Below are positions 7,872-29,028 of a stretch of 64,000 nucleotides of DNA, one piece after another. The notes under the pieces are model-generated. The model was not told the DNA's origin. It searched no databases and saw only the letters and a program-made list of their open reading frames with translations. Made by a program: the position numbers and the translations under genes. Origin of the DNA: Stenomitos rutilans HA7619-LM2 (GTDB lineage Bacteria > Cyanobacteriota > Cyanobacteriia > Leptolyngbyales > Leptolyngbyaceae); assembly GCA_019358945.1 (NCBI GenBank), contig JAHHIE010000015.1:1-64000 (forward strand), given 5' to 3'. How positions within the stretch are numbered: position 1 is the first letter of the stretch; the number at the start of each line of letters is the position of its first letter.

Positions 7872-10800
7872 GTGCTCACAGTCATCACTCTGCCCCCGGC
7901 CAATGCTATGAAACCTGAACATCTTGAAAGCTTGCGCGAATGCTGCCACAGTGATGTCGCTTTTGAGCAGATGCAGCGAATCTTGCTGGCAGCAGAAGCC
8001 GAGCACCAGCAGATGGAGTTAAAAACGCTCTGCCAATCGCTGCTAAGTCAGCCGGTTCGTAGCGCTGGTGTCCCTGCAAATGTTAATCGCAATCACTATC
8101 TCAAGTCGCTTGAGGAACTCATTCTAGAGCGGACAGCGGATTTGCTCAACACAAATGGTCGGTTGCGGCAAGAAATTGTTGAGCGTAGACGCGCTGAAAA
8201 AGCGCTTCAGGAGAGTGAGCAACGCTTTCGATCGCTCATTGAAAATGCCACTGATATCATTGTGGTGCTCGATCGTAAGGGTATCTTTCGCTATTGCAGT
8301 CCCTCGGCTGCAAAGGTGCTAGGGTACACCATTCAAGATGTTGTGGGGCACAGCACGGCTGAATTTGTACATCCAGACGATATTTCGATCATTGTGGCTG
8401 TGCTGGAAAAAGCGATTGAACACCCTAAAACGAGCCAGCCTGCAATCGAATATCGGGTGCGTAACCGTAACGGTTCCTGGTGCTTTTTTGAAGCGGTTGC
8501 GACGAGCTTGCTAGATGTACCAGCCATTAACGGGGTTGTGATCAACTGTCATGATATTACCGAGCGCAAACGGGCAGAAGAGGCACTACTTATTGCTAAT
8601 CGACAGACAGTCAACATCCTGGAAAGCATTACGGATGCCTTTATGTCGCTGGATCGACAGTGGTGTCTAATCTACGTTAATCAACAGGCCGCGCAGCTAT
8701 GCCAGCGATCGCGCGAGGAACTCCTGGGACAAAGCCTGTGGGAGGTCTTTCCTGATATCGTCGGCTCGGTTTTTGACCAGGAATATCATAGAGCGCTAGA
8801 ACAGCAGGTGCCCGTTACCTTTGAAGAGTTTCACCCCTCTTTGAACGCTTGGTTTGATGTCCGATTGTTTCCCTCTGCGGATGGGATGTCCCTCTTCTTT
8901 TTAGATGTGACGGAGCGCAAGCAGGCACAGGCCGAATTGCTGGAGATGAGTACGGCTCTCGGTAACGCGGTTGAGGGCATTGCTCGCCTGGACATCAACG
9001 GTCATTATATTGCCTTAAATCGAGCTTATGCGGCTTCTCTCGGCTATCAACAAGAAGAAATGATCGGCATGTCTTGGCAGCAGACAGTGCATCCCCATGA
9101 TCTGGATGTTGTCACTGCCGCTTACCAGCAGATGATGGTTGAGGGGAAAGCCGAAGCCGAAGCGATGGGCTTACGTAAGGACGGTTCAACGTTTTACAAA
9201 GAGATGGTCATAGTTGCCGCCTATGATTGGCACGATCGTCTCATTGGTCATCATTGTTTTACGAAGGATATTACAGAGCGTAAGCAAGCAGAAGCCGACC
9301 TTTTAGAGAGTCAGGAGCGGCTTAAACTCACGCTAGAGACCACTCAAATGGGCATCTGGGATTATGAGCCAAACCGGGGAACGGTGAAATGGTCTGATAG
9401 CTGTGAACAGTTGTATGGGTTTGAACCAGGTACCTTTACTGGCACGAAGGAAGCGTTCTTTGATTGCATTCATCCAGACGATCGTGCTGCCGTCGTCCAG
9501 CACACCATTCAGCAGAGCAAGCAAGCAAGTAATTACAGCAAAGAATTTCGGATTATTCGGCGCGATGGCACTGTAGGGTGGATTTCAGAGCGCAGCCATA
9601 CGTTCCACGATGAAGCAGGTAATCCAGTCCGCATGCTTGGCATCTCGATGGATACTACCGATCGCAAACGGTTTGAAGAAGCGTTGAGCCAGCAAGCAGA
9701 ACGAGAACGGTTAATGGGGGCGATCGCCCAACGTATTCGCAACTCGCTCGATCTGGAAGAAACATTAAATACAACTGTTTCAGAAGTGCGGCAGTTTTTA
9801 AAGGCTGATCGAGTGGTTCTGTTTGCCTCGCAGCAAGCAAAGAGTGGGTTCATTACCGCTGAGTCTGTCGACTTGAGTTGGCTATCAATGCTGGGTCTAA
9901 AAATAGAGGGCGACTGGGTTGAGCAGCGCCATACCGAACATCGGCAAAGCAAAAATCTGATTGTTGCCAATATTCAAACCATCGACTCGCACGATGCTTT
10001 TCGGCTGTTTCTGGAGCATTGGCAGGTCAAAGCAGTTTTGGCAGTACCCATCTTTCAAGGCAATGCCATTTGGGGCGTGCTCATTGCCCATCAGTGTTTA
10101 GCGGAACGCCATTGGGAGCCGTTTGAAATTGGGTTGTTGGAGCAATTGGCAACCCAGGTGGCGATCGCAATCCAGCAGTCAGAGTTGTATCGTCAAGTTC
10201 AAAAACTCAATACAGCTTTAGAAGCCCAAGTCCACGATCGCACCGCGCAACTTCAGCAAGCATTGCGGTTTGAAGCCACGCTGAAGCGTATTACTGACTC
10301 TGTACGCGACAGTTTAGATGAAGACCGTATTCTACAAACCGCTGTGCAAGAACTGGCATCAGGGTTGGAAATTATGGGCTGCGATGCTTCCCTCTATGAT
10401 CCTGATCGTCGTACCTCTACTATCTGCTACGAATACATTCTCTCGGACTTGCCCACTGCTAATGGGGTTACTGTAGAGATGGAAGAATTAGCTGAAGTCT
10501 ACGACTGGCTTTTACGGGAACAGTGCTTTCAATTCTGCCGTATTCATAGCAACAATCCGCGCTTATTGAAAAAGCAATACACCATTCTGGCCTGTCCGAT
10601 GGTGGATGATCAGGGCGTAATGGGTGATTTATGGCTCTTCCGTTCTTCGGGCGATGCCTTTACAAGTCAGGAGATTCGCTTAGTGCAACAAGTGGCTAAC
10701 CAGTGCGCGATCGCCATCCGTCAGGCGCGACTCTACCAGGCTGCTCAGGCACAGGTTGCTGCGTTAGAAGAACTCAACCAGCTCAAAGACGACTTCCTCA

Positions 10801-11507
10801 GCACGGTTTCTCATGAATTGCGGACACCGATGTCTAATATGAAGATGGCGATCCACATGCTGAAAACCGTCTCGACACCAGAACGGCAAGCGCGCTACCT
10901 AAATATTTTGCAATCGGAATGTTCGCGTGAGATTGAGCTGATTAATGACTTGCTCGACTTGCAGCGCTTAGAGGCTTCGGCCTACCCCGTCTCGCTGGAG
11001 ACCGTGAATTTGCACACTTGTCTGGCAACTGTTATTGAGCCGTTTTACTCACGGGCAAACGATCGTCAGCAAGCACTGACCATACACTTTCCTGCTCATC
11101 TACCCTCAATGACTACAGATAAAGCAACCTTGCAGCGGGTGGTAGCAGAGTTGCTCAATAATGCCTGCAAATATACATCACCTGGTCATGCCATCACCTT
11201 GACGGTTGACTATAAACAACCTTTAGGAGTCGAGCTAAGTGAGGCAATGGCACAAATTATTATTACTGTTGGCAACCAGGCAGAAATTCCCCTAGCTGAA
11301 TTGCCACACTTGTTTGAAAAGTTCTATCGAGTTCCCAACGCTGACCCCTGGAAGCAGGGTGGAACCGGGTTAGGGTTGGCTTTAGTACAGCGTCTGATCA
11401 GCCAGCTTGAAGGAGCCATTCTCGTCGAGAGTTCCAATGGTTGGACACATTTCTCGATTCAGCTACCCCTGCCAGCGCGATCGCTCATGACAGCACTTTC
11501 TGCTTAA
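7872..11507 (+). CDS. Multi-sensor histidine kinase (4 PAS, 2 GAF, HisKA, HATPase)
   Basis: A soluble sensor kinase of up to 1211 residues. Order: short N-terminal helical region, four PAS/PAC domains (about 120-235, 245-350, 357-470, 484-603), two GAF domains (about 625-775 and 800-960), HisKA with phospho-acceptor H981 (VSHELRTP), and HATPase with N-box ELLNNACKY near 1093 and glycine-rich GGTGLGLALV near 1164. The G1 box reads VGNQAEIP where DxGxG is usual; an NSGxEIP variant followed by KFYRxP and DPWKQGGTG is common in cyanobacterial kinases, so activity is probably kept. There are no membrane segments. A cognate regulator is not adjacent. A GTG at 7872 or an ATG at 7908 may be the start; neither has a clear ribosome site. 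Confidence 0.9.
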   Translation: MLTVITLPPANAMKPEHLESLRECCHSDVAFEQMQRILLAAEAEHQQMELKTLCQSLLSQPVRSAGVPANVNRNHYLKSLEELILERTADLLNTNGRLRQEIVERRRAEKALQESEQRFRSLIENATDIIVVLDRKGIFRYCSPSAAKVLGYTIQDVVGHSTAEFVHPDDISIIVAVLEKAIEHPKTSQPAIEYRVRNRNGSWCFFEAVATSLLDVPAINGVVINCHDITERKRAEEALLIANRQTVNILESITDAFMSLDRQWCLIYVNQQAAQLCQRSREELLGQSLWEVFPDIVGSVFDQEYHRALEQQVPVTFEEFHPSLNAWFDVRLFPSADGMSLFFLDVTERKQAQAELLEMSTALGNAVEGIARLDINGHYIALNRAYAASLGYQQEEMIGMSWQQTVHPHDLDVVTAAYQQMMVEGKAEAEAMGLRKDGSTFYKEMVIVAAYDWHDRLIGHHCFTKDITERKQAEADLLESQERLKLTLETTQMGIWDYEPNRGTVKWSDSCEQLYGFEPGTFTGTKEAFFDCIHPDDRAAVVQHTIQQSKQASNYSKEFRIIRRDGTVGWISERSHTFHDEAGNPVRMLGISMDTTDRKRFEEALSQQAERERLMGAIAQRIRNSLDLEETLNTTVSEVRQFLKADRVVLFASQQAKSGFITAESVDLSWLSMLGLKIEGDWVEQRHTEHRQSKNLIVANIQTIDSHDAFRLFLEHWQVKAVLAVPIFQGNAIWGVLIAHQCLAERHWEPFEIGLLEQLATQVAIAIQQSELYRQVQKLNTALEAQVHDRTAQLQQALRFEATLKRITDSVRDSLDEDRILQTAVQELASGLEIMGCDASLYDPDRRTSTICYEYILSDLPTANGVTVEMEELAEVYDWLLREQCFQFCRIHSNNPRLLKKQYTILACPMVDDQGVMGDLWLFRSSGDAFTSQEIRLVQQVANQCAIAIRQARLYQAAQAQVAALEELNQLKDDFLSTVSHELRTPMSNMKMAIHMLKTVSTPERQARYLNILQSECSREIELINDLLDLQRLEASAYPVSLETVNLHTCLATVIEPFYSRANDRQQALTIHFPAHLPSMTTDKATLQRVVAELLNNACKYTSPGHAITLTVDYKQPLGVELSEAMAQIIITVGNQAEIPLAELPHLFEKFYRVPNADPWKQGGTGLGLALVQRLISQLEGAILVESSNGWTHFSIQLPLPARSLMTALSA

Positions 11508-19966: not shown

Positions 19967-22591
19967 ATGACCCATCCTGAATTTTCAGTGCATCGTTCCG
20001 ACTCCAGGTCTAACAGGGCGACTCAAGGCAATCTGCTTGGCGTGCTGACAGCGGCTTTCTACGGCCTGTTTACTCTGCTGCCGAACAGCAATAGCTTGAT
20101 GGTGGCGTGGCCCTGGGTGTTTATTTGGCAGATCGGCTTAGTTTGTCCTGTGCTATGGCTGCTGGGATTGCTGTGGCAGAGACGCTTACACTGGCTGGGG
20201 CATCGGCTTGATTGGCTGGTAGGGCTGTTGGTGGTGGGGGTGATCCTTTCAGCCGGGCTGGCGGCGTTTCCGATGCAAGCCCACTGGTATAGTTGGGCAA
20301 CGTTTTGCTGTCTGGCAGCGCTGTATGCCTTGAGCACATGGCTGGCTGTCCCAGAGCGTCGATCGCGCCTTCTGGTTGCCCAGGGCTATTTGAGTCTCGC
20401 GTTTATTCTGGTTAGCCTTACACTGTGGAGCTATACAACACTTTTGCCTGAGCTTGCTCGCTTGCGGTCATGGCAGCAGTATGGGGTGTCGTTACCCTTC
20501 GATTTTGCGATCGTGGAGCTGCGCAATTGGGCACCGATCGGGCACCAAAATTATGTGGCGGGTTATTTAGTCCTGACACTGCCGCTTCTGCTGGGGTTGG
20601 GGCTGAGCCAAACTGGATGGCGGCGATCGCTCTGGTTTTTAGGCGTTGGTCTGGGGCTACTGGATCTGTATACCACCAGTTCGCGCGGTGGCTGGCTAGG
20701 TGTGCTGACGATGGCGATCGTCTCGTTTGGGGTGTTGCTGTGGCGAGGGCGGCTGTCCCGCCGTTGGCTGGGCGCGATCGGAGCGATCGGGCTGGTATCG
20801 CTAGTTTTGCTGGCATTGGCAAACAATCGCCTCCGGTCTTTAGCGGCAGGGCTTTTGAGTGGTCAGGCGGGAGGGGAGGTGGCGTATCGCTTAGTGACGA
20901 CGACGATCGGCTGGCTTATGGGCTGGGTGCATCCATTCACAGGGATTGGCCCTGGCGGGGTGCCGCTACTATTTCAGCAGTATCGCCCGGAGTGGGCTGG
21001 GCATCAGGCCGAGTGGGCCTACCAGTTACACAGCACTCCAGCCCATCTGTGGGCAGAGTTGGGTCTCTGGTCAGTTCTGGTCAGTGTTGGGACGATCGTG
21101 TTGCTGGGCTGGTTGGCGATCGCCTGGTTACGAGACGGTGCAACCTCCAGTCACCTATCACCCATCTTTGTCGGTTGCCTGTTTAGTAGCCTGTTGGGCT
21201 ACGGTGTTGTGAGTTTGACGGATTACCAGCTTGATAATGTGTGCATTAGCGGGACGCTGATTGTCCTTCTGGCTCTACTCACTGCCGAATTCCGCGATCG
21301 TCAAAGCCTCAAAGATCAGCGAACGCGCGATCGTCCGCTCGTGGAGCCAACGACCGCTGTGCCCCACCCTTTTACGCCTTTACTGCTGTACCCGCTGCCT
21401 TTTCTGCCTCTCATGGGGCTTGGTATTCTCATTGCTGCCCTGATCTGGTTGATGCCCGTTCACCGTGCCTGGCTGCTCTCCAGTCAGGGGTTTGCGGCTC
21501 TCAGTCGAGAGGACGTGCCCACCTTTGTGCAGCACCTGAAGCAGTCGCATCAACTGGCTCTCTGGGAACCGTACTATGCTTACGAATTGGGGTGGAATTT
21601 AGGAAACCTGGGCTTAAAAACCAGCGACCCAAAACAGCGGGAGCAGTTCATGGAAGAGGGTCGCTTCTGGTTGCAGCAAGGGATTCAGAGTTCGCCCAGT
21701 CAAGAATTTGGCTATACCAGTCTGGGATGGCTTTTGCTCGATCGCCAGCCGAAAGCTGCTAGCCGCGCGTTTGCTCAGTCTGCCAGATTGGTGTCGGCTA
21801 AGCGAGGTCTTTTTTATGGGTTGGGCTTAAGCCTTTTGGCACAGAGAAAACTGGATCTGGCAATAGCCGCGATGACGCTAGAGGCTCTTCGTGATCCCCT
21901 CTTGATCACCAGCCCAATCTGGCAGGTGGCAGCCCTGAAACCACTTTACAAACCAGTCACTCAACGGCTCGAAACCGAATTAACATCCTTACTCACAACG
22001 GCTACGGCGAACCCCTTAGCAGCGCAGTTGCATCAAATTCGGGGTGGGTTGCGCTGGTGGCAGGGCGACGTCACAGGCGCACGGCTTGATCTCGCAACGG
22101 CTGGTACTGCGTTCAGTCAACGGGTGCTTGATTTAGCGGAGGGCAAATCCGTACCATCGCCCCTGATGACTGATTGGGGGCTAAAAGGGGCAACTACCAG
22201 CCGCAGTGGGGCGCGGGCGATCGCGGCCTGGCTTGATCCAGCCAATCGTGAGGTGTTGCTCCAGCAAGCATGGATTTTTGCCACGCACACCGATCCTCCT
22301 ACAAATCTGATGCCTCAGCTTGTGGCTACGATGGCAAGCTCAGCTACGTTTGACCAATGGCTTAAACAAAATGCCCCCAACCAAACGTATCGGCGTGAAC
22401 GAGCAGGCTTTGGCGTACTCAGTCGCCATATCGACGGGTCGATTCCCGTGGATTTTATGACAGTGGTGGATAACCTTCCCATCGCTCAATTTTGTCAAGA
22501 TCTGATAGTGTCGTTTGACTATGCTCCAGAGCTAGATAGGGCGCTACAAGCCAAGCGAGATGCGCTGCTGCAAGAGGTCTTGAAGTCGTAA
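19967..22591 (+). CDS. O-antigen ligase-like membrane protein with C-terminal TPR region
   Basis: The 874-residue protein has a large membrane domain (about 10-430) with ten or more hydrophobic segments and the Wzy_C/O-antigen ligase signature region (GHQNYVAGYL, TSSRGGWLG, GIGPGG), then another hydrophobic segment near 480-500 and a soluble helical C-terminus (about 510-860) with TPR-like repeats. Such enzymes polymerise or ligate polysaccharide or glycan on lipid carriers at the inner membrane. The substrate is unknown. It resembles cyanobacterial proteins of the IctB/WaaL superfamily. No other polysaccharide gene is near. Confidence 0.8.
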   Translation: MTHPEFSVHRSDSRSNRATQGNLLGVLTAAFYGLFTLLPNSNSLMVAWPWVFIWQIGLVCPVLWLLGLLWQRRLHWLGHRLDWLVGLLVVGVILSAGLAAFPMQAHWYSWATFCCLAALYALSTWLAVPERRSRLLVAQGYLSLAFILVSLTLWSYTTLLPELARLRSWQQYGVSLPFDFAIVELRNWAPIGHQNYVAGYLVLTLPLLLGLGLSQTGWRRSLWFLGVGLGLLDLYTTSSRGGWLGVLTMAIVSFGVLLWRGRLSRRWLGAIGAIGLVSLVLLALANNRLRSLAAGLLSGQAGGEVAYRLVTTTIGWLMGWVHPFTGIGPGGVPLLFQQYRPEWAGHQAEWAYQLHSTPAHLWAELGLWSVLVSVGTIVLLGWLAIAWLRDGATSSHLSPIFVGCLFSSLLGYGVVSLTDYQLDNVCISGTLIVLLALLTAEFRDRQSLKDQRTRDRPLVEPTTAVPHPFTPLLLYPLPFLPLMGLGILIAALIWLMPVHRAWLLSSQGFAALSREDVPTFVQHLKQSHQLALWEPYYAYELGWNLGNLGLKTSDPKQREQFMEEGRFWLQQGIQSSPSQEFGYTSLGWLLLDRQPKAASRAFAQSARLVSAKRGLFYGLGLSLLAQRKLDLAIAAMTLEALRDPLLITSPIWQVAALKPLYKPVTQRLETELTSLLTTATANPLAAQLHQIRGGLRWWQGDVTGARLDLATAGTAFSQRVLDLAEGKSVPSPLMTDWGLKGATTSRSGARAIAAWLDPANREVLLQQAWIFATHTDPPTNLMPQLVATMASSATFDQWLKQNAPNQTYRRERAGFGVLSRHIDGSIPVDFMTVVDNLPIAQFCQDLIVSFDYAPELDRALQAKRDALLQEVLKS

Positions 22592-23174
22592 GTTTAGGGG
22601 CCGATCACTGAAGCAGTTGTTGGTTGTGGTTGTTAGTTTTTAGCAGAAAACTGACCGCTGACCGCTAATCACTTATCTTCACATAATGATGTAAGCTGCT
22701 ACAACTCGAAGTCTATTTCATGGTGGATGCGGCTTCTCTTTGTATGCGCTGGAACTATTCCTGGCGCTATTGGGTCAGTGGGAGGAGATTGGGAGACCGC
22801 GCTCGCATGCTTTTGTACTGGTTGAAGCGAGACCCGATCGCGCGGGTGCACGCCTGTCATTACCACCTCGATCGGGCTGTTGTCTTGATATGATTGCCTC
22901 AACCCTTGAAGCGCTACAATCACCGTTTTGAAGGCCGATCGTAACTGTACTAAAGGTGCGATTCATCAACGCAGAAGAGGCATTTTGCACAGCCGTTCTC
23001 GATCAAAAGCGCCATGATTGCTACTATTGTGCTGATTTTACAAATCGCACTAGATGCATCAGAATGGGTAGGCAATTAAGCGCTGTAGAGTGTAGTCGTC
23101 TCGCTGTTCACCTGGATAAAGATCTGAATCCATTTATCCTTAACTTTTTTGCCGTTTTAGTGCCAGGAGCAGTC
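22592..23174. other. Intergenic region upstream of the Tic22-like gene
   Basis: About 580 bases. The frame of the downstream gene stays open back to 22956, but residues coded there are unlike a protein N-terminus, while a signal sequence begins at 23175 behind AGGAGC. No RNA gene recognised. Confidence 0.45.
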
Positions 23175-23972
23175 ATGAAATCATTGGTTCGCTGGAGTGC
23201 AACCGCTGGGTTAGTTGGAAGCGCTCTGATAGGGTCGTTTCTAGCAGGCACCCTGCAAGTCCTTGCTATTCCTCAAGAGCAAATTATCCAAAAGCTTCGC
23301 CCCGTGCCTGTTTTTACAATCGCCAACGCGCAGGGTGCTCCACTGGTGGCGTCTCCTCCGACTGGACAGAAAGGGCGAGCAGTGGCGGGTGTCTTCATCA
23401 GCCAGAAAGATGCTCAAGATTTTCTTAACAACCTCAAAACCAAAAACCCCGACCTTGCTAAAAATGTGAAGGTTGTGCCCGTTTCACTGGCAGAGGTGTA
23501 TCAGCTCAATCAAACCAACAAAGGGAAGCCAGAACAGCTTGATTTTGCCTACGTTCCTTCCAAGCAGCAGGTTGATACGGCTGTGGCGCTGTTGAAGCAG
23601 CAGGGTGGACAGCAACCTCAGCAATTCAACGGTACGCCGCTCTTTGTGGCTCGTGGTGGTAAAGAGAAAGGCTACCTGACGATTCAGCAGGATGGCAAGT
23701 CGATCATTCCAATGTTCTTCAACAAGGAAGAATTGCAGGGGTTGCTCGATCGCTTTAAGCAGCAACAGCCTGACATGTCCAGTAGTGTCGAAATCCAGGT
23801 GCTTAATCTAGAAGGGCTGATGGAGATCTTACGCACCAAGAATGATCCTCAATTGGATCAGATTGTGCTGGTGCCCCCGCAACAGTCGATCGAGTTTGTG
23901 AAGTCCATCTCGCCTCAGCAAGGTGCGCCTGCTACGAACAAGCCTGCTGCCGCTCCTGCGCCTAAGAAGTAA
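23175..23972 (+). CDS. Tic22-like periplasmic protein
   Basis: Cyanobacterial Tic22 proteins are periplasmic chaperone-like proteins needed for outer-membrane biogenesis and are related to the chloroplast import component Tic22. The 265-residue product has a signal peptide (about 1-30, ending near VLAIP), the paired Tic22 repeats VPVFTIANAQGAPLV...GVFISQKDAQDFL and TPLFVARG...IIPMFFNKEELQGLL, and a Pro/Ala-rich tail. Start at the ATG at 23175, nine bases after an AGGAGC site. prmC follows 16 bases downstream and is probably co-transcribed. Confidence 0.85.
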   Translation: MKSLVRWSATAGLVGSALIGSFLAGTLQVLAIPQEQIIQKLRPVPVFTIANAQGAPLVASPPTGQKGRAVAGVFISQKDAQDFLNNLKTKNPDLAKNVKVVPVSLAEVYQLNQTNKGKPEQLDFAYVPSKQQVDTAVALLKQQGGQQPQQFNGTPLFVARGGKEKGYLTIQQDGKSIIPMFFNKEELQGLLDRFKQQQPDMSSSVEIQVLNLEGLMEILRTKNDPQLDQIVLVPPQQSIEFVKSISPQQGAPATNKPAAAPAPKK

Positions 23973-23988: not shown

Positions 23989-24948
23989 GTGAACTCTAAA
24001 GACGATTTAGACAGCCTCTCGTCTCCATTAAGGGGGCGAGAGGTTTGTGTCTCTGGGCAAGCACTCTGGCAATGGCGAACGGCAGCGTGTCAACAGGCGA
24101 TCGCCGCTCAGGTTCCGGTAGAGGAAGTGGATTGGCTGCTGCAAGATCTGGCTGGGCTTGATCGCCTGTCGCTGCGATTAGAAACCTTTAAAGATAGAGA
24201 CGTGATCTGGCTGGCGCGATCGCTGTCAGACTTAACGCTCCTTTGGCAGCGGCGGCTTCAAGAGCGAGTACCTGTGCAGTATTTGACTGGAGTGGCTCCC
24301 TGGCGTCATTTTGCGCTAAACGTTTCGCCAGCCGTCCTGATTCCGCGCCCGGAGACAGAATCCCTCATTGATCTTGCGATCGCGGCGGCATGTCCGACAC
24401 CCGATCCCCCTTACCCAGCACCCCTTACCTACAGCCAATGGGCCGATTTAGGTACGGGCAGCGGAGCGATCGCCATTGGTCTGGCAATGGCTTTTCCGGC
24501 AGCGACGGTGCATGCAGTGGATCGAAGTGCTGCCGCGTTGGCGATTGCTCGCGCTAATGCTCAGCAACTCAAGCTGACCGATCGCATTCAGTTTTATGAA
24601 GGCTCCTGGCTGCAACCGCTGGCAACTCTCAAAGGTCAGCTCAGCGGCGTAGTTTCCAATCCGCCCTATATTCCCACCGCGATGATACCCACCTTACAGC
24701 CAGAGGTGGCCCAGCACGAACCTCACTTAGCGCTGGATGGTGGTGCCGATGGGTTGAATTGCATCAGACATCTGGTAGCAACCGCTCCTGATTACTTGCA
24801 ACCCGGAGGAGTTTGGCTCATAGAAATGATGGCAGGGCAAGCAAGTACCGTAGCGGCCTTACTTCAAGAGCAGGGAAGCTACTGCCAGATTCAGATTTAT
24901 CCCGATTTGGCAGGCATTGATCGCTTTGCCCTAGCCTACCGTCGCTAA
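23989..24948 (+). CDS. prmC: Release factor glutamine methyltransferase
   Basis: PrmC (HemK) methylates the glutamine of the GGQ motif of peptide chain release factors RF1 and RF2. The 319-residue protein has the N-terminal helical substrate domain, then the SAM domain with DLGTGSGAIAIGLA and the catalytic NPPYIP loop (VVSNPPYIPTAMIP). The proline-rich insert before the SAM motif (PTPDPPYPAPL) is slightly unusual. Start is a GTG at 23989 behind TGCGGAG. It follows the Tic22-like gene by 16 bases and converges on the caspase-like gene. Confidence 0.92.
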   Translation: MNSKDDLDSLSSPLRGREVCVSGQALWQWRTAACQQAIAAQVPVEEVDWLLQDLAGLDRLSLRLETFKDRDVIWLARSLSDLTLLWQRRLQERVPVQYLTGVAPWRHFALNVSPAVLIPRPETESLIDLAIAAACPTPDPPYPAPLTYSQWADLGTGSGAIAIGLAMAFPAATVHAVDRSAAALAIARANAQQLKLTDRIQFYEGSWLQPLATLKGQLSGVVSNPPYIPTAMIPTLQPEVAQHEPHLALDGGADGLNCIRHLVATAPDYLQPGGVWLIEMMAGQASTVAALLQEQGSYCQIQIYPDLAGIDRFALAYRR

Positions 24949-24981: not shown

Positions 24982-27441
24982 TCAATTACTCTGCTGCAAC
25001 GCATTAGCGCGATCGATCGCCTCTTTTTGCTGCGCCTCTTTACCCTGCGTTTGGTAATACCTTGCGGCAGTCTGAAAACTGTTGATTGCCGCAGTCCGAT
25101 TGTTGAGTGCTTGCTGCGCTAGCCCAAGATTGTAATGAGCATCCGCATACTCTGGCTGTAACCGAATTGCCCGGTTGTAGTCGCTAATGGCGTCTCTGGT
25201 TCGGGTCTGGGTAAACTGTGCATTGCCTCGATTGTTATAAGCTCCAGCTTGAACGGAGCGGGGGGGGTTAAGCGAAAGCGCCTGTTTGTAATCCTGCATT
25301 GCACCGTCATAGTCTCCTTTTTTAGACCGCGCATTGGCAAGGTTAATGTGTGCTTGGGCGAGATTTCCGTTCAGCGCCACGGCTTGGTTCCCTTCTTCCA
25401 ACGCTTTATCGTAATTCTGGCGATCGTAGTAGGCGTAGCTAAGGTTACTGTGTAGCATGGCCGTCTGGGCAGCAGACTGGGGGGTAAGCTTCAGCGCTTG
25501 TTCGTAGTCTCGAATGGCAGCGCTCGTATCGCCTAATCGATGGTAGGCAACCCCGCGATTGGTGTAGGCTGATACGTCATTCGGGTTTTTCTCGATCGCA
25601 TGAGTGTAGTCGGCGATAGCCGCTTTGTTGTCACCACTCTGCGCTTTTTTAAGCCCTTGAGCATTAAGCTGTTGGGCTGCGGTTGCATCAACAGGCGTTT
25701 GTTGCCCAAACTTAAACCAGTTGGAGCGATTGGAGAACGGCATAATGGCTGCTAGAATGCCCAGAATCGCTGCAAGCAAGATGGCTGGAACAATCAGCGC
25801 TTGATAATTAGACGTAGAGCGTCGAATTCTATCCATAAAATTTGGGTTAGCGTTCGGCAAGGTCGGCGATGGAGCTTCTTGTACAGTGACTGGGCTGGGT
25901 GGAGACACTGGGGGCGGCAAAGGCTCTGGCGGGATAGGATTTGGCTCGTTTAGATTGAACAACCGTTGCATGACGGCTTCTTTGGCACGCGAGTCATCTG
26001 GCGGAAGTGAAGCAGCGGTCTCTGCTGAAGGTATCTCGGATGGGGGTAAGGTCGGTTGGGGGCTGAATCGGTTTCCTTCTGGCGCTTGCACAGGGTTGGG
26101 TTGACTGTCAGGCTCAGCGCTGGAGGGTGCGACTGCTTCTACCTCTGGCTCTGAGTTGTTGCCATCACCGTCCGTTACAAATTGCTGTGCCCGAGTCATC
26201 AATTGGGCTTCAAGCGCCTGCACGTCCTCATCTTCTAAGTGTAGTGTCTGTTGCAAGCGGTGGAGCATCGCACGATCGCGCTCATGGAGTGGAAGCTGGC
26301 GCTGCATGGCTCTCAGCAAAACCTGTTGATAGTGTGCCAGATGCCCCTGATATTGGGTTTGCTGGTGCTGCTGAAGGGCAAGTGAGGGAGCGATCGTAAT
26401 CATCGCGACATCCTGATCTCTTAGATAAAGAGCTTGCTGTAGCTGCTTCCATATCTGGCGGCACTGATCAAGCGGGACATCGGACGATCGAGCGCTTTCT
26501 GCCACAGTTTCCCGATAAATCGCCATGCGCTGCTGATACTCCTGCTGCGGGCGCAACACCTGCGCTTCTAACTCAGCCGCCTCTCGTGGTGAAAGCCCCA
26601 AACTGTGCCGCATATCGTTTAGTAGCGATCGCCCCTCCAGCATCGGCGTTCCTACTGCATCGGTGTCGATTGTTGCAGTCTCAAGCACTTTACGGTAGTG
26701 CAGCCGTGGGTGCCCCTGAGACACTTCTAGTAATGGCATGTTAGCCATTTCGTCGCTGCCAGCCAGGTGGGTTTCCAGTGCTGGTGCTGCAACATGCAGC
26801 TTCTGCGATGCATAGTTGTGCAGAGCCGCCGCCGTAAGTGACCCCGTATCCTCCCTATCTGCCGCACCGCTCTCAATCCCTTCTGCGAAATAGCGGATGT
26901 ACGTCCACGCATCAAGCGCGGCTGTTAAGGCTGTTTGGGTTCTATTCGCTGCCGCTAAAACCACCCGTCCTGTACCCTCCAGGGATGCAGCTAACGTGTT
27001 GGCAGAGGCAGCCACAATGGGTTGATCCAGTGCTTGCTGACAGTAGCTGTTTACAATTACAACTTGCTGTTTAGCGGGGCTACTATCCATCGCTTCCTGG
27101 ATGGCGATCGCGGGGATGAGTTGTGCTTTGACCAGCGTACCTTGCGCTGGCAGCGTTGTACTGGGAGTGGCAAAATACAGCCTGCCATCGGTGTCTTGCA
27201 AGGTATAACCGCAAAAGAGAAACACAAGTTGGTCATCGCTGATTCGCTGCTTAAAGAACAGCTCAAGGGTTTCCTGCATCTCTTGCAGAGGGCGATCGCA
27301 CAGGCTCATCACTGACTCAAACTGAAATTGCGGCTGTTTTAGCACGCGCCTCATTACTTCCACATCTTTTTGAGCACTCGGTAGTGGGGCTAACCCCATT
27401 GGATACCGACTCACCCCCATCAGTAGCGCTACCCTGGACAT
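24982..27441 (-). CDS. Pseudo-caspase (metacaspase-like p20 fold) with TM segment and TPR repeats
   Basis: The N-terminal 200 residues have the caspase p20 layout: start VALLMGVSRY, strand QLVFLFCGYT and strand QQVVIVNSYC. The usual GHG catalytic His is replaced (C77-G78-Y79-T80) and the DxCxSG block reads N131-S-Y133-C-Q-Q, placing Tyr at the catalytic Cys position. This is a Tyr/Tyr active-site variant, expected to be non-proteolytic. A helical middle (about 280-425), a Pro-rich linker (430-535), one membrane segment (548-568) and five to six TPR units (590-800) follow. It resembles cyanobacterial orthocaspase relatives with scaffold or signalling roles. The gene is monocistronic and convergent with prmC. 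Confidence 0.75.
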   Translation of the reverse strand: MSRVALLMGVSRYPMGLAPLPSAQKDVEVMRRVLKQPQFQFESVMSLCDRPLQEMQETLELFFKQRISDDQLVFLFCGYTLQDTDGRLYFATPSTTLPAQGTLVKAQLIPAIAIQEAMDSSPAKQQVVIVNSYCQQALDQPIVAASANTLAASLEGTGRVVLAAANRTQTALTAALDAWTYIRYFAEGIESGAADREDTGSLTAAALHNYASQKLHVAAPALETHLAGSDEMANMPLLEVSQGHPRLHYRKVLETATIDTDAVGTPMLEGRSLLNDMRHSLGLSPREAAELEAQVLRPQQEYQQRMAIYRETVAESARSSDVPLDQCRQIWKQLQQALYLRDQDVAMITIAPSLALQQHQQTQYQGHLAHYQQVLLRAMQRQLPLHERDRAMLHRLQQTLHLEDEDVQALEAQLMTRAQQFVTDGDGNNSEPEVEAVAPSSAEPDSQPNPVQAPEGNRFSPQPTLPPSEIPSAETAASLPPDDSRAKEAVMQRLFNLNEPNPIPPEPLPPPVSPPSPVTVQEAPSPTLPNANPNFMDRIRRSTSNYQALIVPAILLAAILGILAAIMPFSNRSNWFKFGQQTPVDATAAQQLNAQGLKKAQSGDNKAAIADYTHAIEKNPNDVSAYTNRGVAYHRLGDTSAAIRDYEQALKLTPQSAAQTAMLHSNLSYAYYDRQNYDKALEEGNQAVALNGNLAQAHINLANARSKKGDYDGAMQDYKQALSLNPPRSVQAGAYNNRGNAQFTQTRTRDAISDYNRAIRLQPEYADAHYNLGLAQQALNNRTAAINSFQTAARYYQTQGKEAQQKEAIDRANALQQSN

Positions 27442-27981
27442 CTAATCGCTTCTAAGACTCCCTCTGCACCAGTGAATTGTTGAGTGGATAAGTTTTGGCT
27501 CATGACTTACCCTAAATTGCCTGCAAAATACGCGGTTTTATCCGCCTGATATGCTGTTCAGAGCACACCAACAGAATCTATGTAAGGATACTGAATCCTT
27601 TGCCAAATGAAACATTAATTACAAGCTGTCGCGATGCCATAGCCCTTATCGGGCGGCGATCGACGTGTTTCGGTGATGTGACGGATCGAGATGCCCAATC
27701 CTAACCGTTAAACTCAAGAGCGTTGGACGCTTGGGACTTTATCTGCCTGGCATGGCAGAGTGCTACGGCAAGACGAGCATAAGCGGCTGGTACAACGCTG
27801 GCCTCTGCGCCATGCGTGTTTTTTGTGCTGGTGCACCTCCGTAAGCTGCCTTTCAGCACGCAGGACAAGGAATCCCGCCAAAAGCTAGATTAAACATTAG
27901 CGGCCTTTGTTGAAGTCATTTTGCTGTTCTAATGCTCGATTTTGCATTCATGTTCATTCCAAGCTCGATGCGATCGCACCC
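27442..27981. other. Divergent intergenic region
   Basis: About 540 bases between the divergent caspase-like and C39-like genes. There is a short hairpin AGCGTTGGACGCT near 27719-27731. The frame upstream of 27982 stays open to 27907 but lacks a plausible protein start. No other feature seen. Confidence 0.4.
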
Positions 27982-29028
27982 ATGCTGCTAGAAATTGCCG
28001 CTACATTGCTGCTAGGTGGCCTGTGCTTTCGATGGGGTATGCGCTTTGGTACACTGCTGCTGCGCAAAGGGTCAACTGCTAATGATTTATTCAAAGGTAA
28101 AACCTCCCTTTCGCTGTTGTTTCTGGGGCTTTATATTGGGCTGATTCTCTTGGCGCTCAATGTCCCTCAAATGCAGTTTTTGCCTTTAGAGTGGCGTGTA
28201 TCTGGCATGCGCATCACCTGGACTATTATGCGTGCTGTACTACTGGGGTTTTGCGGACTGGCATACGTCATCAGTTGGCAGACGGCACGGCTACAAGTAT
28301 TTGCGGTGGTATTGATTGGCGTACTGGGCGTTACTGGGTTCAGTGCTGCCGAAGCCTATTTCCTCTCGCCGATTTATACCTGGCTGCACAACAATCTACA
28401 GCCAAACGGGGTGTATAAGCAGACATCAATGAGTAGTTGCGCCCCTTCAGCGCTGGCGACCGTTTTACGGCGCTGGCAGATCGATGCCACAGAGTCGGGC
28501 GTTGCACGGTTGGCAGGCACCAGTCGCTTGGGCACATCGATGCCACAACTCATTATGGCTGCTCACGAACTGGGAATGGATGGGACTGAACTCTCGCCAA
28601 CCTGGGAGCAAATGCAACGCATTAACCGTCCTGGTGTGTTGGGTGTTTGGCTTATTGATGGTGAACGCAAACTGCCTCATGCGGTTGCCCTGTTAGCCAT
28701 GAATAGTGAACAGGTGGCGATCGGTGATCCTGCACGAGGCAAAATTTATGCCCTAGATCAAGCCCAGTTTGCAACGATTTGGCGACAGCAGTATGTACCG
28801 ATTTTTCGAGCCAGCGATCGCGCGTTGCCTCCAGCCCAAGCCGCTGATTATCTACAGCGTTTGGGTTATCTCAGCCAGCCCTCTCAAGATCTCAGTCAAG
28901 CAATCCGCCGCTTTCAGGCAGCAGTTGGTATTCCAACTACAGGCGAGCTGGATGTACAAACCGTGCTGCTCTTAACGGGGCCGTTTCTAGAGAAGGTGCC
29001 GACGCTAACGCCGCAACGGTCTCCTTGA
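27982..29028 (+). CDS. Membrane protein with C39-peptidase-like domain and peptidoglycan-binding tail
   Basis: From the ATG at 27982 the product has 348 residues: four hydrophobic segments (about 3-20, 45-65, 75-95, 100-125), then a papain-like C39 domain with C153 (SSCAPSALATVLR), H233 (PHAVALL) and D249 (IGDPARG) in the order and spacing of a functional catalytic triad, and a C-terminal PG_binding_1-like helical repeat (about 290-335, AIRRFQAAVGIPTTGELD). It could process or cleave a secreted peptide or act at the cell wall. No substrate peptide or ABC exporter gene is adjacent. An upstream frame to 27907 is open but unlikely coding. Confidence 0.75.
   Translation: MLLEIAATLLLGGLCFRWGMRFGTLLLRKGSTANDLFKGKTSLSLLFLGLYIGLILLALNVPQMQFLPLEWRVSGMRITWTIMRAVLLGFCGLAYVISWQTARLQVFAVVLIGVLGVTGFSAAEAYFLSPIYTWLHNNLQPNGVYKQTSMSSCAPSALATVLRRWQIDATESGVARLAGTSRLGTSMPQLIMAAHELGMDGTELSPTWEQMQRINRPGVLGVWLIDGERKLPHAVALLAMNSEQVAIGDPARGKIYALDQAQFATIWRQQYVPIFRASDRALPPAQAADYLQRLGYLSQPSQDLSQAIRRFQAAVGIPTTGELDVQTVLLLTGPFLEKVPTLTPQRSP

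Follow-up and report, generated by a model that had tools for sequence, protein, structure and literature searches.

A cyanobacterial pseudo-orthocaspase with tyrosine in both catalytic columns, joined to a membrane helix and TPRs: a candidate non-proteolytic docking scaffold

Cyanobacteria commonly carry pseudo-orthocaspases, whose function is a matter of dispute. One gene in the window (the whole stretch of 64,000 nucleotides that was analysed, C5:1-64000 in the 7.28-Mb genome of a filamentous cyanobacterium, where C14 has 12 matches) raises this question sharply: what might a caspase fold be doing when tyrosine stands in both of its catalytic columns, and when helical repeats, a transmembrane (TM) helix and TPRs follow it in the same chain (Table 1)? 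A reading made from the sequence alone had reported the motifs CGYT and NSYC in a caspase fold joined to a membrane segment and C-terminal TPRs. Both motifs were found as described, and the architecture was confirmed by Pfam and by the hydrophobic segment at residues 549-567. The only Pfam matches above cut-off in the 819-aa protein were Peptidase_C14 on residues 3-218 (E=2.9e-9, 37.4 bits vs. a cut-off of 21.4) and TPR_1 over residues ~594-800, in six stretches (E=1.9e-34, 116.5 bits).

Table 1. Positions in the window of the caspase-fold gene, its parts and two conserved neighbors
Feature	Position	Strand	Description or basis
Whole gene	24982..27441	(-)	819-aa caspase-fold/helical-repeat/TM/TPR protein; ATG start, ORF intact
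Predicted p20 caspase-fold domain, residues 1-240	26722..27441	(-)	PF00656 on residues 3-218, alignments, fold searches
Codon TAT, Tyr79, catalytic His column	27205..27207	(-)	Alignments and MALT1 profile
Codon TAC, Tyr133, catalytic Cys column	27043..27045	(-)	Alignments and MALT1 profile
All-helical segment, residues 243-430, ~60-aa hairpins	26152..26715	(-)	AlphaFold and internal repeat score
Variable proline-rich linker, residues 431-545	25807..26151	(-)	Sequence; dN highest in most pairs compared
Single transmembrane helix, residues 549-567	25741..25797	(-)	Hydrophobic segment
TPR array, residues ~590-802	25036..25674	(-)	Pfam
PrmC/HemK-like methyltransferase, convergent, conserved neighbor	23989..24948	(+)	
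Tic22-like protein, conserved neighbor	22956..23972	(+)	

Structure models were informative to different degrees. AlphaFold gave a pLDDT of 82 over the helical residues, and the internal ~60-aa repeat of this segment scored 46 against a shuffle maximum of 29 (81 against 24 in the relative L031); the repeat is also present in a relative that retains the catalytic His and Cys (H/C). Foldseek returned no match for the helical segment (best E 0.27), and a TerB-like Nostoc protein (2ou3) was rejected as a match, its Z of 6.6 over 72 residues lying within chance. The p20 model was poor (pLDDT 54), as just five sequences entered its alignment; its fold matches in Foldseek and VIA were caspases, MALT1, metacaspases and Raptor, and its best VIA Z of 8.6 was near the range of chance arrangements. 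A PDB search with the window protein alone as query found nothing but ubiquilins (E>=0.28). The predicted caspase fold is an assignment that rests on profiles.

Alignment with H/C relatives placed Y79 in the GHG column and Y133 at the second C of DCC (DCCFSG). A profile of 34 relatives (E=2e-5) matched the same two columns to YAGHG and LDMC of human MALT1, motifs that we take to carry MALT1 H415 and C464. Together these alignments bear out the catalytic placement of the two tyrosines, which the sequence-only reading had offered as its own point to check. The neighboring C134, whose placement in the Cys column that reading had given as an outcome that would refute it, was ruled out as the catalytic Cys, its column being the F/H residue next after the catalytic Cys in H/C relatives. 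As judged from its sequence, the protein is a real p20 pseudo-orthocaspase, with a p20 fold and with both catalytic residues replaced.

We then asked how far this state extends among related genomes, using 388 cyanobacterial genomes and a second sample of 386, with up to five candidates per genome fully scored. With a profile of 18 orthologs (A1), members of one clade scored 424-517 bits in the 388 genomes, vs. 330 bits or less for all else, and all 18 members fell within the window's family, in eight genera; the second sample, at a strict cut-off, yielded no clade member outside that family. In a tree built without the two catalytic columns, and whose root was not inferred, a 100/100 branch split the 18 members from 22 other relatives, 21 of which are H/C. 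An ortholog was present in six of the seven genomes of the genus, including the window's (the copies in G036 and G039 reach a contig end), and G037 had no clade member at all. The nearest named orthologs, from a profile scan with A2, were in Tildeniella nuda, Stenomitos frigidus, Lyngbya sp. HA4199-MV5 and Leptolyngbya sp. ES-bin-22. A scan of genome contigs with the single protein as query gave no match, and a scan of viral contigs for further caspases found none.

Within the clade, the His column holds 16 Y and 2 H, and the Cys column Y (7), C (6), I (2), S, H and Q, giving the dyads Y/Y, H/Y, Y/S, Y/H, Y/Q, Y/I and Y/C. Even the nearest sister (L014) and another close relative (L016) are H/Y, with His again at 79 and Tyr kept at 133. 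The sequence-only reading of a distinct, conserved Tyr/Tyr type is not supported, Y/Y being one state among several. Parsimony over the whole tree assigns three changes to the His column, namely a single H->Y and a reversion to His in each of L014 and L016, and seven to the Cys column. Provided that H/C is ancestral, this suggests that the loss of His came first and was followed by repeated loss of Cys. It appears that H->Y is one old change common to the clade and that the Cys column has simply drifted, so that a function of Tyr133 in its own right is unlikely. The related statement, that Tyr at both sites is known mainly from cyanobacteria, stands in part: cyanobacterial pseudo-orthocaspases often have Tyr at the His site, but at the Cys site it is reported only as rare (YY dyads in PMC6426788, listed also in PMC7475262).

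Several other C14 proteins also depart from the canonical motifs. Two paralogues in the window's genome (L005, G000:C39:161855-162661; L006, G000:C14:6260-6949) have a His block that reads FSGYG, with Tyr, and look like independent cases. L067 (G158:C212:15603-17621) is a single ORF with a tandem pair of p20 domains, each of which shows Cys->Trp (ILDCWF), and similar ORFs of ~1050 aa with a p20 match occur in G211, G217, G241 and G247, of the same family.

Besides positions 79 and 133, six others (D26, S77, G80, S135, G136 and S165) show little or no variation among the 22 non-clade relatives but vary within the clade; position 79 is only Y or H there, and 133 and 136 belong to the more variable quarter of columns. 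Columns of the fold are kept in the clade (A5, L6, G9, L20, D70, G78, R159, L162, Y181, G188, D195, G200 and H208). By our reading of the motifs, positions 26 and 131 would correspond to the pocket residues Asp95 and Asp211 of the TbMC2 metacaspase; D26 is kept in 9 of 18 members, being absent from all members with a split gene (see below) and from both Y/I members, and 15 of 18 retain D131. For the p20, dN/dS was ~0.12-0.23 within the genus and ~0.03-0.07 among members of the split sub-clade (NG86, with some dS near saturation), and the ratio was well below 1 in the p20, helical and TPR parts. This shows that the gene is maintained by purifying selection, and a pseudogene was rejected on this ground; selection on the p20, together with the ortholog in six of seven genus genomes, places the 819-aa gene beyond a chance ORF.

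In seven genomes from four genera (L087, L088, L089, L090, L091, L093 and L094), the coding sequence consists of two overlapping ORFs. The overlaps measure 4, 11 or 14 bases in two frame relations, and the junction lies at query residue ~320-326, inside the helical repeats; in L094, for example, the ORFs span 8359-9339 and 9336-11012. ORF1 comprises the p20 and the first hairpin, lacks a TM helix and is soluble, and ORF2 comprises the rest (helical-TM-TPR). A GGGG- or GGG-containing stretch, e.g. CAGGGGACGGC, precedes the ORF2 ATG and is a plausible ribosome site. One change on the tree suffices for the two-gene form, and the split is likelier to be the derived state, since H/C relatives run through the junction point in a single frame. 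Sequencing error was rejected as its source given the differing overlaps, the two frame relations, the similar place of the ATG, the G-rich stretch upstream and the recurrence in seven genomes. A further two-gene copy (L096, G011:C108:1-1384) has a frame-broken p20 ORF and a second ORF truncated where the contig ends. All fused members and each of the seven ORF2s have the hydrophobic TM segment, and in most members K/R is in excess on its N-terminal side (a small difference, 3 vs. 2, in the window), a bias that by the charge rule would fit an N-inside topology.

In four genera (g1, g10, g13 and g15), one of them with the split form, the caspase-fold gene has the PrmC-like and Tic22-like genes as convergent neighbors; in the remaining genera, where the contig sufficed, it is placed elsewhere. 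This association is synteny, not evidence of a common pathway. On the 5' side, a divergent gene at 27907-29028 encodes a C39-peptidase and peptidoglycan-binding protein, which adjoins the caspase-fold gene in four other genus genomes as well (83-92% identity), and an 874-aa O-antigen-ligase-like (Wzy_C) protein is encoded at 19967-22591, next to the Tic22-like gene.

Known cyanobacterial pseudo-orthocaspases (Klemencic 2019, PMC6426788; Bhattacharjee 2021, PMC8283722; review, PMC7475262) share with the window protein a p20 without the His-Cys dyad, H->Y as the commonest change, and frequent TM helices. YC, YQ and YH dyads have been described, in a study that also counts a few (one or two) pseudo forms with TPRs and 37 with TM helices (PMC8283722). 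The main YS and YN groups keep both S1-pocket Asp and have no other domains, with a TAT-like N-terminus in YS (PMC6426788); unlike these, the window protein has an eroded pocket (D26 kept, D131->N, Cys at 77), starts directly at MSRVALLMG without an N-terminal extension, carries helical repeats, TM and TPRs, and has relatives in two-gene form. SyOC of Synechocystis PCC 6803 is a different pseudo-orthocaspase, which has a Tyr-Gly dyad and whose gene is the sole p20 gene of its genome; its knock-out tolerates oxidative stress better, and the in vivo study suggests a pro-death role under such stress (PMC7889975). Alphaproteobacterial FS forms likewise place TPRs after a dead p20 (PMC6426788), but have a Phe-Ser dyad and belong to another phylum. 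EACC1-associated caspases (NF047832; eLife 2020, PMC7159879), which have been linked to conflict systems, are similar in having the caspase at the N-terminus, with C-terminal domains that vary and often with TM helices; the window protein scored 78.5 bits against that family's cut-off of 140 (182.3 for the H/C relative L032) and has no same-strand 5' partner gene, its 5' neighbor being divergent. Since both YY dyads and pseudo-orthocaspases with TPRs or TM helices have been published before, the protein is a lineage-specific variant.

At a probability of roughly 0.6, we favor a pseudo-orthocaspase that has turned into a non-proteolytic, membrane-anchored docking scaffold, with the p20 in the cytosol and the TPRs outside. 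The N-terminal caspase fold would no longer cut or hold peptides and, together with the helical hairpins, would form a binding surface, and the TM helix would bring the TPR array into the periplasm or thylakoid lumen to bind a partner there. In the split sub-lineage, the caspase part is a separate protein, encoded by a gene that immediately precedes and overlaps that of the membrane part, and the two halves would therefore presumably meet via the hairpins. The N-terminal caspase-like domain of Raptor offers a precedent of a caspase fold that serves as a scaffold and is followed by helical repeats; Raptor is among the p20 fold matches but is eukaryotic, and we claim no common descent. Of the earlier suggestion of a scaffold or sensor rather than a protease, the scaffold is favored over the protease, as dyad and pocket are lost while purifying selection is kept; TPRs, moreover, are known protein-binding repeats (PMC6426788). 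Somewhat tentatively, one may also picture a two-subunit transmembrane signaling pair, in which the caspase fold without catalysis or pocket would be the soluble cytosolic subunit and TM-TPR the receptor facing the lumen or periplasm; the two would be fused in the lineage of the window and split with translational coupling elsewhere.

Other explanations appear less compelling. It is unlikely that the dead p20 acts, by analogy with cFLIP and caspase-8, as a dominant-negative or decoy of the cell's active orthocaspases, by pairing with an H/C paralogue or shielding substrates: the same genome does have C14 proteins with GHG and the Cys motif intact (e.g. L001, L002, L004, L007, L008 and L009), and inactive caspases have been reported at the effector position in bacterial conflict systems, as possible dominant-negative regulators (PMC7159879), but the conserved neighborhood contains no active caspase gene that we could see, and shielding is improbable because the substrate-holding residues are eroded. 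That same erosion (N131 and C77 in the window, D26 missing from all split-gene and both Y/I members) makes it quite doubtful that the acidic pocket would still bind basic-residue peptides, as proposed for YS/YN pseudo-orthocaspases that retain it (PMC6426788), despite the frequency of D131 and D26 in the clade. An enzyme of changed chemistry, with Tyr or a remaining Cys as nucleophile, might be read from the retention of Y79 in 16 of 18 members and of Cys in six Y/C members, and these six may have residual or altered chemistry; for the clade it is very improbable, given six different residues in the nucleophile column, the chemically inert I and Q among them, and two His79 members that both lack Cys. 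A decaying gene without function, to which the eroded active site, the frame-broken p20 ORF on G011:C108 and the absence from G037 might point, is largely refuted by the dN/dS values, the intact ORF in most relatives and the orderly two-gene form.

For the pseudo-orthocaspases, this clade suggests an order of loss, with the His column going first and the Cys column and pocket later, and it shows that a caspase fold can persist after catalysis and pocket have both been relaxed. Its split relatives are a natural two-protein version, in which binding is directly testable.
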